Program-made: the position numbers and the translations under genes
Source: Candidatus Sulfotelmatobacter sp.
GTDB taxonomy: Bacteria; Acidobacteriota; Terriglobia; Terriglobales; Acidobacteriaceae
Length of the DNA stretch: 64,000 bases
Assembly: GCA_025462865.1 (NCBI GenBank)
Contig: JAOAPI010000101.1
Coordinates: forward strand, 1-64,000
Direction of reading: 5' to 3'
Shown here: piece after piece, positions 52,261 to 53,488 of the stretch
Position numbering within the stretch: position 1 is the stretch's first letter
How the letters are laid out: each line of letters opens with the position of its first letter
Notes under the pieces: generated by a model
What the model was told of the DNA's origin: nothing
The model's input: only the letters and a program-made list of their open reading frames with translations
Database searches by the model: none

Positions 52261-52353
52261 ATGACTCGATTTATCTCGTTTACCGGGCCGTTTCGCTACT
52301 GCTGGTTTGCCAGAGTAGCGGCTGCGGCAGGACTTGCGAGGAGATCGAACTGA
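52261..52353 (+). CDS. Aromatic-amino-acid leader peptide (attenuator)
   Basis: A 30-codon frame reading MTRFISFTGPFRYCWF, followed by ARVAAAAGLARRSN and a TGA stop. The first 16 codons carry four Phe (codons 4, 7, 11, 16), one Tyr (13) and one Trp (15), far above chance. It lies 107 bp before aroF and directly upstream of the alternative hairpins at 52,324-52,415. This is the layout of phe/trp-type attenuator leaders. The ribosome site is weak (GCGGGA about 10 nt upstream). Translation and control are inferred from layout alone. Confidence 0.7.
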   Translation: MTRFISFTGPFRYCWFARVAAAAGLARRSN

Positions 52354-52415
52354 GATGATCCCCTAGATCGAAGCAAGTTTTGGTCCGAGGCCGCGATTCA
52401 AGAATCGCGGCTTTT
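52324..52415 (+). promoter_or_regulatory. Transcription attenuator of aroF (antiterminator/terminator pair)
   Basis: The terminator is a perfect 10-bp stem, GCCGCGATTC (52,390-52,399) and GAATCGCGGC (52,402-52,411), with a 2-nt centre and TTTT after it. The competing antiterminator pairs GCGGC (52,324-52,328), GGA (52,330-52,332) and CTTGC (52,333-52,337) with GCAAG (52,373-52,377), TCC (52,384-52,386) and GCCGC (52,390-52,394). The last segment is the left arm of the terminator, so the two exclude each other. A ribosome stalled on the aromatic codons (to 52,308) leaves 52,324 free; one reaching the stop at 52,351 covers it. Confidence 0.7.
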
Positions 52416-52459
52416 GTATTTTGCGGTGGAAGTTAATTCCGGAATTCAGGAGCGAAGCA

Positions 52460-53488
52460 ATGATCGTCAATATGTCCGAGAAAGCGACTGAAGATCAGAT
52501 TGCGCACGTAATCGAGCGCATTCGCGAGGCGGGGTACCAACCTCATGCAACGCGAGGAGTGGAGCGCACGATTGTGGCGGCCGTAGGAAATGGACGCCGT
52601 CATGAGATCGAGGCGCTGCTGGTTGCGCCCGGCGTGGAGAACGTGGTCGCCATCGCTCAACCCTTCAAGCTTGTCAGTCGCCAGGTAAAGCCAGAGCGGA
52701 CTGTGGTGGATGTTGGCGGAGTTTCGATTGGGGGGCCGGGAGTGGTGGTGATCGCCGGACCGTGTTCGGTGGAATCCCGCGAGCAGTTGCTCAGCACGGC
52801 GCATGCAGTGAAGGAGGCCGGTGCCACGATGCTGCGAGGGGGCGCCTACAAGCCACGAACTTCTCCGTATGACTTTCAGGGGCTCGGTTTGGAAGCGTTG
52901 AAGATCTTGCGCGATGCGCGGGAAGAAACCGGACTGCCGGTGGTGACGGAAGTGATGAGCACGGAAGATGTGGACATTATTTGTGAGCATGTGGATATGC
53001 TCCAGGTGGGAGCGCGCAACATGCAGAACTTCGCATTGCTGCGGCGACTAGCGACGGTGAGCAAGCCGGTGCTGTTAAAGCGCGGTCCTTCTTCGACGGT
53101 GAAGGAATGGCTGCTGGCTGCGGAGTATTTGCTGTCTGGAGGAAATAACCAAGTTGTGCTTTGCGAACGGGGCATCAAGACTTTTGAAACGGAGATGCGC
53201 AATACGTTCGACCTGGCTGCCGTGGCGCTGGCCCGCGATCTTTCACATCTGCCGGTGATGGCAGATCCTTCGCACGGAACTGGCAAGCAGAGTTTGATTG
53301 CCGCAGTCTCACGCGCTGCGGTTGCGGTAGGCGCCGATGGACTGATTATTGAAGTGCATCCCTGTCCCGAGCGGGCATTGTCGGATGGGGCCCAGTCGCT
53401 GGATTTCGCCGGATTTGAGAAAGTGATGAAGGCCATTGCGGAGCCTTTGCGGAAAGCGGCAGTAAGTGCGGATATGGCGCGTGCGTGA
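52460..53488 (+). CDS. aroF: DAHP synthase, type I-beta with N-terminal ferredoxin-like domain
   Basis: The enzyme condenses phosphoenolpyruvate and erythrose 4-phosphate to DAHP, the first step of the shikimate pathway, in the cytoplasm. It has 342 residues. Residues 1-70 form the ferredoxin-like regulatory domain known from the Thermotoga enzyme, which mediates Phe/Tyr inhibition. The barrel has [59 protein letters not shown] [11 protein letters not shown] and [12 protein letters not shown] 52460 follows AGGAGC. It is preceded by the leader peptide and attenuator, so both transcription and activity would respond to aromatic amino acids. Confidence 0.96.

Follow-up and report, generated by a model that had tools for sequence, protein, structure and literature searches.

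The trpL and pheL leaders of enterobacteria share one logic, with 1:2, 2:3 and 3:4 hairpins and control codons in segment 1, and each operon has its own leader, for Trp or for Phe. Multivalent leaders, with several amino acids per leader, are found at the ilvGMEDA and thrABC operons of E. coli, where they concern the branched-chain or threonine family and not, as here, aromatic amino acids. In Firmicutes, T-boxes at aromatic operons are known, which sense the charging of tRNA for this same pathway through a different RNA that does not need translation. As for DAHP synthase, the aroR leader of the Corynebacterium glutamicum aroF gene was reportedly described by Neshat et al. in 2014. Attenuation by aroR is reported in two papers (PMC4046766, PMC11802643), the latter of which also mentions trpL and pheL. 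In the accessible portions of these papers, stalling upon Phe limitation raises transcription, the core of the leader is Phe-Tyr-Phe, no Trp is mentioned and no element shared between several loci is described. A candidate leader attenuator, the uORFC-13-1 motif, has also been reported before aroF of Acholeplasma; in the available part of that report it has 24 representatives, from Acholeplasma and environmental sequences only, with a candidate Phe leader ORF (at least one Phe codon, RBS described) just 5' of a terminator and exclusively before aroF, and leader attenuation of E. coli aroF is said to have been hypothesised (PMC8632094). These aroF cases, in C. glutamicum and, as a candidate, in Acholeplasma, go beyond the examples in the preliminary description of the present locus, which called leader-peptide attenuation well known for the proteobacterial pheA, pheST and trp.

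We analysed a window of 64,000 nucleotides from Candidatus Sulfotelmatobacter sp., in which an aroF gene lies at 52460-53488 of the forward strand (NF006421; PF00793 with a ferredoxin-like PF18152). Its product, which we take to be a type I-beta DAHP synthase, is very probably under the control of a ribosome-mediated transcription attenuator belonging to an RNA family found at several aromatic operons, as sequence comparison indicates. Upstream on the same strand lies a leader ORF of 30 codons and a TGA (MTRFISFTGPFRYCWFARVAAAAGLARRSN, 52261-52353; ATG 52261-52263, TGA 52351-52353), with Phe at codons 4, 7, 11 and 16, Tyr at codon 13 and Trp at codon 15. These six aromatic codons, all within the first 16, are exactly as first described. 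Both the cluster of pathway-product codons in a short upstream ORF and an intrinsic terminator separating this ORF from the first gene are found in the window and in relatives. By description, the element is like aroR in placing an aromatic-codon leader before DAHP synthase, and is unlike it in belonging to another phylum. Where 58 relatives are compared below, they are the subset that a strict rule for a leader and a GCCGC-type terminator selects from 85 distinct upstream regions; a looser script found leader and terminator in 62 of 82 regions.

Three mutually exclusive pairings can form on the forward-strand RNA, with the same hairpin logic as trpL and pheL. Hairpin 1:2 (52293-52321; 52293-52300 with 52314-52321 and, inside, 52302-52305 with 52310-52313), identified by folding and covariation, had been overlooked at first, and it completes a full 1:2, 2:3 and 3:4 layout with the two pairings noted earlier. 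It contains the Arg-Tyr-Cys-Trp codons, those for Arg-Tyr being in its 5' arm. The antiterminator joins region 2 (52319-52337) to region 3 (52373-52393), the latter sharing bases with the terminator's 5' arm; it is indeed present in the predicted fold with a stalled ribosome, but its 5' arm begins at 52319, not at 52324 as originally proposed. The intrinsic terminator (3:4, 52387-52421) also lies 3' of the leader as announced; its stem, spanning 52387-52414, is built of three weaker pairs and nine of Watson-Crick type (52390-52398 with 52403-52411) around a CAAG loop, and a U-rich tract (T-rich in the DNA) follows. The 165-base leader fold has z = -3.8, none of 200 shuffles being equally stable. 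Dinucleotide shuffling of 52161-52459 (1000 trials) equalled the aromatic-codon richness of the leader 5 times, the quality of the terminator once and the two together never.

From this layout we infer the following mechanism. Scarcity of charged tRNA-Phe, -Tyr or -Trp would stall the leading ribosome at codons 4-16, most effectively in the F-R-Y-C-W-F cluster, and the stalled ribosome would melt hairpin 1:2 while region 2 stays free. Region 2 would then pair with region 3, no terminator would form and RNA polymerase would enter aroF. When all three amino acids are plentiful, the ribosome would reach the stop codon and cover region 2, upon which the terminator stem would form and the transcript would end near 52415.

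We modelled stalling with the ribosome A site at each leader codon in turn and 12 downstream bases hidden, reading out the probability that the terminator 5' arm pairs upstream. In the window, stalls up to codon 16 are predicted to keep the RNA free from 52319 onward, and a ribosome at the stop codon to cover it. Averaged over the 58 elements, the modelled antiterminator probability reaches 0.83 for stalls at aromatic codons (n = 360), against 0.49 for stalls at other codons (n = 1316) and 0.04 for a ribosome at the stop; permuted codon positions (2000 trials) give a mean of 0.56 and a maximum of 0.62 against the 0.83 obtained. In 51 of the 58, at most two codons separate the last aromatic codon from the switching boundary, where the antiterminator disappears. 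Elements at other operons (n = 27) give similar values (0.83 at aromatic and 0.56 at other codons), with weaker masking at the stop (0.19). With no ribosome, the mean probability stays at 0.70, and that of the window at 0.96, so termination without translation does not follow from the model. The ribosome-controlled geometry put forward at the outset, in which a stall frees region 2 and the stop position masks it, is thereby favoured by the model at this 12-base downstream footprint, and conservation and covariation point the same way.

The leader is probably translated, a point that its substitution pattern does not prove. In alignment A1 (34 of the 35 closest elements, L015 being omitted as a near-duplicate of L009), gaps 5' of the last aromatic codons preserve the frame, having lengths divisible by three, and frame shifts appear 3' of them. 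Over 294 pairs (codons 5-16), an aromatic residue is conserved in 69% of cases and replaced by a different aromatic one in 11%; non-aromatic residues are kept in 40%. The synonymous ratio of A1 is 0.59 for codons 2-16 versus 0.33 neutral, a modest excess, and behind codon 16 there is an excess too (0.58 versus 0.40); in alignment A2 it is 0.41 versus 0.26 and drops to 0.15 versus 0.28 in the stretch behind. An excess at third codon positions was sought in the substitution pattern of the leader and none was seen. The starts picked by script in the 58 relatives are ATG (54), GTG (3) and TTG (1); L013 and L045 have GTG at the position where others carry ATG, and L002 has an additional ATG one codon upstream. 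As an SD-like 4-mer precedes the leader start in only 8 of 58 relatives (background 102 of 1120), translation would have to initiate without one. Before aroF itself such a 4-mer is found in 51 of 58 relatives, and in the window it can be read from the sequence as AGGAG (52448-52452, forward strand).

The hairpins 1:2 and 3:4 covary in two alignments. The first, A5, comprises 19 elements, its stand-alone aroF members being at most 80% identical to the window aroF; 96.6% of its cells pair, and it shows 19 two-sided changes versus 6.5 +- 1.8 when shuffled and 0-12 when slid. Further pair types in A5 are no more numerous than in shuffles (13 versus 12.1; 181 of 500). Compensatory stems of this type are exemplified by CCGCTACTG/CAGTAGCGG, CCGCTATTG/CAATAGCGG and CCGCTTCCC/GGGAAGCGG. 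The second, A6 (59 elements), has 58 two-sided changes versus 25.2 +- 3.5, a figure that leans to the model as the alignment was fitted to the structure. RNAalifold, applied to a first MAFFT alignment, recovered the terminator and, once the alignment was shortened, just the GCGGC/GCCGC core, because the antiterminator arms were unaligned there. We replaced it by per-sequence folding and, for the 2:3 pairing, by a comparison of own versus cross arms in 82 of 85 elements, the remainder being too short: own arms pair more stably than those of distant relatives in 77 of the 82 (mean 5.4 kcal/mol). The outer GCGGC/GCCGC core of the antiterminator is nearly invariant, and hence uninformative for covariation. 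Antiterminator segments reach z < -2 in only 24 of 58 elements, partly because the stall was fixed at the last aromatic codon. The comparison of aroF upstream regions across Acidobacteriota that the preliminary description had proposed as a check thus argues for its reading, with aromatic codons kept and stems covarying.

We built a covariance model, R1 (142 positions, 17 pairs), from 19 elements, which were stand-alone aroF loci at most 80% identical to the window aroF and partly copies at other operons, so that the scores of the latter are inflated. R1 matches the window with 46.7 bits (E = 5.7e-7 over a genome of 6.1 Mb, which has no other match at E<=0.05). Within the genus, where genome-scale searches used stricter filters and weak matches can be lost, R1 matches beside aroF in 36 of 36 genomes carrying this aroF, and one of the nine genomes without it has a weak match, perhaps a remnant. 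Among 80 aroF relatives from named genome records 66 match, that is all 58 chosen for a visible leader and 8 of 22 others; six of the 66 were training members, and four of the 14 misses have at most 131 upstream bases. All 59 non-training sources, chosen for a visible leader, are found by R1. An order-wide sample of 120 genomes has this aroF subfamily in 16 (E<=1e-125), and the eight aroF loci new from this search all match. At 20 paralogous aroF loci of the same genus (L133 and L137 with approximate start only), there is neither an R1 match nor a terminator-like hairpin within 400 bases, and the control would thus be tied to one aroF and not to DAHP synthase generally. Two isolated loci may be mentioned. 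Locus L419 (G002:C74:42579-42714), of the same genus and from a genome without this aroF, has an GGCCGCGATGCCGGATCGCGGC terminator behind the end of a pilin-like gene and no aromatic leader, and is perhaps a fossil attenuator left after loss of aroF. In genome G020, a second match (L418, E 0.002) has no aromatic gene.

The same RNA is found at other aromatic operons. Several relatives without a leader at aroF have it further upstream, before an aroQ or aroQ-pheA that precedes aroF, Pyrinomonas methylaliphatogenes (L062) being an example. A search with the terminator pattern gave matches in 66 of 396 phylum genomes, and among 40 contexts picked from these, 30 have a leader before aromatic genes and ten do not (L309, L310, L312-L315 and L317-L320). 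In the same 396 genomes, R1 has 74 matches at E<=0.01, spread over 45 genomes; 67 of these places are at E<=0.001. One of the 67 (G308:C74, E 3e-8) is unreadable, lying at a contig end with the genes out of view; the other 66 are all before aromatic-pathway genes: trpBA-aroQ-aroF (25), aroK (28), aroQ/pheA and other Phe/Tyr-branch operons (10) and aroF alone (3). Of the seven places at E 0.001-0.01, three are before trpB, two (G488 and G637:C30) had no aromatic gene found and two (G310 and G637:C41) were left out of context reading. Twenty-eight genomes have two copies, and in the 27 that are readable trpB and aroK each have one of the copies, with E 0.008-0.009 for three of these trpB copies. 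In L296 and L297 the element stands before aroQ with lpxC, a gene of lipid A synthesis, downstream, and lpxC is possibly under aromatic control there.

A common RNA switch before several aromatic-synthesis operons of related soil bacteria suggests a shared control system. We are inclined, with some reserve, to see a portable attenuator, one RNA family having spread between the aroF, aroK, trpBA-aroQ-aroF and aroQ/pheA-aroF operons of Acidobacteriota and formed a scattered aromatic regulon that has no protein regulator. Its codons would be retuned at each site, with Trp kept for the Trp or common pathway and lost for Phe/Tyr only, and in part of the family the mRNA would start almost at the ATG. 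On this last point, 20 of 27 trpBA, aroK and aroQ elements have TTG, a spacer of 15-19 and a TANNNT whose end lies 6-20 bases 5' of the leader ATG; the RNA start would then be almost at the leader. The same pattern occurs in just 5 of 56 stand-alone aroF elements, in which TANNNT is not enriched over a control window (15 versus 14 of 56); 83 of 85 elements were used for this comparison, the remainder being too short. The window itself yielded no sigma-70-like promoter.

Attenuators are usually described operon by operon, and here one element serves several operons of one pathway. Unlike trpL and pheL, a single homologous RNA with varied codon mixes stands at genes for DAHP synthase, shikimate kinase, Trp synthase and chorismate mutase/prephenate dehydratase; unlike uORFC-13-1, the family has mixed Phe/Tyr/Trp codons, a leader without SD and several target operons. 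It is thus a known kind of attenuator in a new homologous family. What is new is the sharing of one element, the regulon it makes up and the pattern of its codons; aroF attenuation itself is not. In the accessible text of open-licence PMC papers, we found no report of this element in Acidobacteria or Terriglobus, nor in those on DAHP synthase, shikimate kinase and aromatic amino acids; an available portion of one paper finds no conserved RNA structure upstream of phenylalanine/tyrosine operons of Actinobacteria (PMC1262725). With this family, attenuators would gain a likely function in a phylum where, as far as the accessible part of one study goes, almost none of those predicted had one (PMC2965389). 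R1 can be used to annotate aromatic operons across Acidobacteria, and the 27 genomes with copies at trpB and aroK suit direct tests.

The codon content of the leaders follows the products of the operons, which amounts to a natural experiment on the codons that a stalled-ribosome switch reads. A Trp codon is present among the first 24 in 24 of 25 trpBA leaders (the exception, L417, is a mis-picked frame counted as lacking Trp), in 25 of 25 aroK leaders and in 2 of 14 Phe/Tyr-branch leaders (Fisher test of the latter against trpBA plus aroK, p = 3e-10, shared descent uncorrected). In stand-alone aroF leaders it is present in 51 of 68 (Phe/Tyr branch against aroF alone, p = 3e-5, shared descent again uncorrected). 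For these counts identical peptides within one context were merged, the frame of L394 was adjusted manually to match L393, and L055 was excluded, its downstream gene being unclear; "aroF alone" means a terminator at most 350 bases from aroF, and L024 (265) and L054 (290) may hide a small gene. Trp codons tracking operon products would be the pattern expected of a product-matched sensor, and from sequence alone we infer that the window leader may sense Phe, Tyr and Trp together. A refinement rather than a full rival of this reading, possible if on balance doubtful to us, is that the attenuator is real but senses one or two amino acids, most likely Phe and Tyr, its Trp codon being kept for RNA pairing or by descent. 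The 17 stand-alone aroF leaders without Trp would fit such narrower sensing, as would the place of the Arg-Tyr codons in hairpin 1:2, which constrains them by RNA pairing, and according to the accessible part of one report C. glutamicum responded to the availability of Phe, not Tyr, despite its Phe-Tyr-Phe core (PMC11802643). The Trp contrast between trpBA or aroK and Phe/Tyr-branch leaders argues against it.

Other readings dispense with attenuation by a translated leader. One might think of a ligand-binding RNA, a riboswitch or a T-box of the kind known at Firmicutes aromatic operons, the more so as 3' of the aromatic codons the RNA is conserved while the frame drifts; we consider this very unlikely, since the aromatic codons are preferentially conserved, indels come in threes before the last of them with frame shifts after, and no family of Rfam 15, which includes leader and T-box families, reaches its gathering score in the window or in 10 related loci (relaxed thresholds gave nothing convincing, with two sub-threshold matches at E 1.2 and 1.6). 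It is more improbable still that 52387-52414 is a mere terminator of the gene upstream and the leader a chance frame. A 54-residue ORF at 51996-52160, which by eye looks like a Flp-type pilin and has no Pfam or NCBIfam match, does stop 100 bases 5' of the leader; a similar pilin-like gene end is found there in many relatives, and the genome of L419 has a similar terminator after such an end without this aroF. However, a plain pilin terminator is hard to reconcile with an identical type of element before trpB, aroK and aroQ, with the covariation of 1:2 and 3:4, and with antiterminator arms that co-vary by the own-versus-cross test. We give equally little credence to translational coupling, in which the leader would help aroF translation by reinitiation and not control termination. 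Such a role has been proposed for leader genes near structural genes, Acidobacteria included, but in the available part of that paper the leader-gene distance peaks at about 10-13 bases (PMC4833913), and in the window 106 bases separate the leader stop from the start of aroF, with the terminator in between and an SD-like site for aroF itself.

Aromatic leaders of other types also precede aroF. A phylum-wide family search (30 aroF loci) gave L142 and L149 with a leader only and L165, L166 and L168 with a leader and a different terminator; these last three, of phylum family f16, have a Trp-rich leader (e.g. ...NWFWWPWHF...) and an AACCCACCC/GGGTGGGTT terminator before another aroF. Among 29 new loci from a search of Planctomycetota, L190 and L198 have other aromatic leaders, and none of 29 new loci from Bacillota was judged convincing (the script flagged L215 and L226). 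Aromatic-rich leaders, mostly with a different terminator such as MNIPGNNLKYCYWVFYYFKYYYKRGGY in L198, precede aroF in L190, L198, L174 and L177 (Planctomycetota) and in L169, from a record titled Bacillota, whose leader has 15 aromatic residues in 43. R1 had no match at E<=0.01 on 10 such loci (best E = 0.25), and aromatic leaders before aroF probably arose more than once. In L316 (G161:C1:1724850-1729850), a leader MNTGRQYFYFYYFYLK stands before an aroF-aroA-pheA-tyrA cluster, with two successive terminator-like hairpins between leader and gene.
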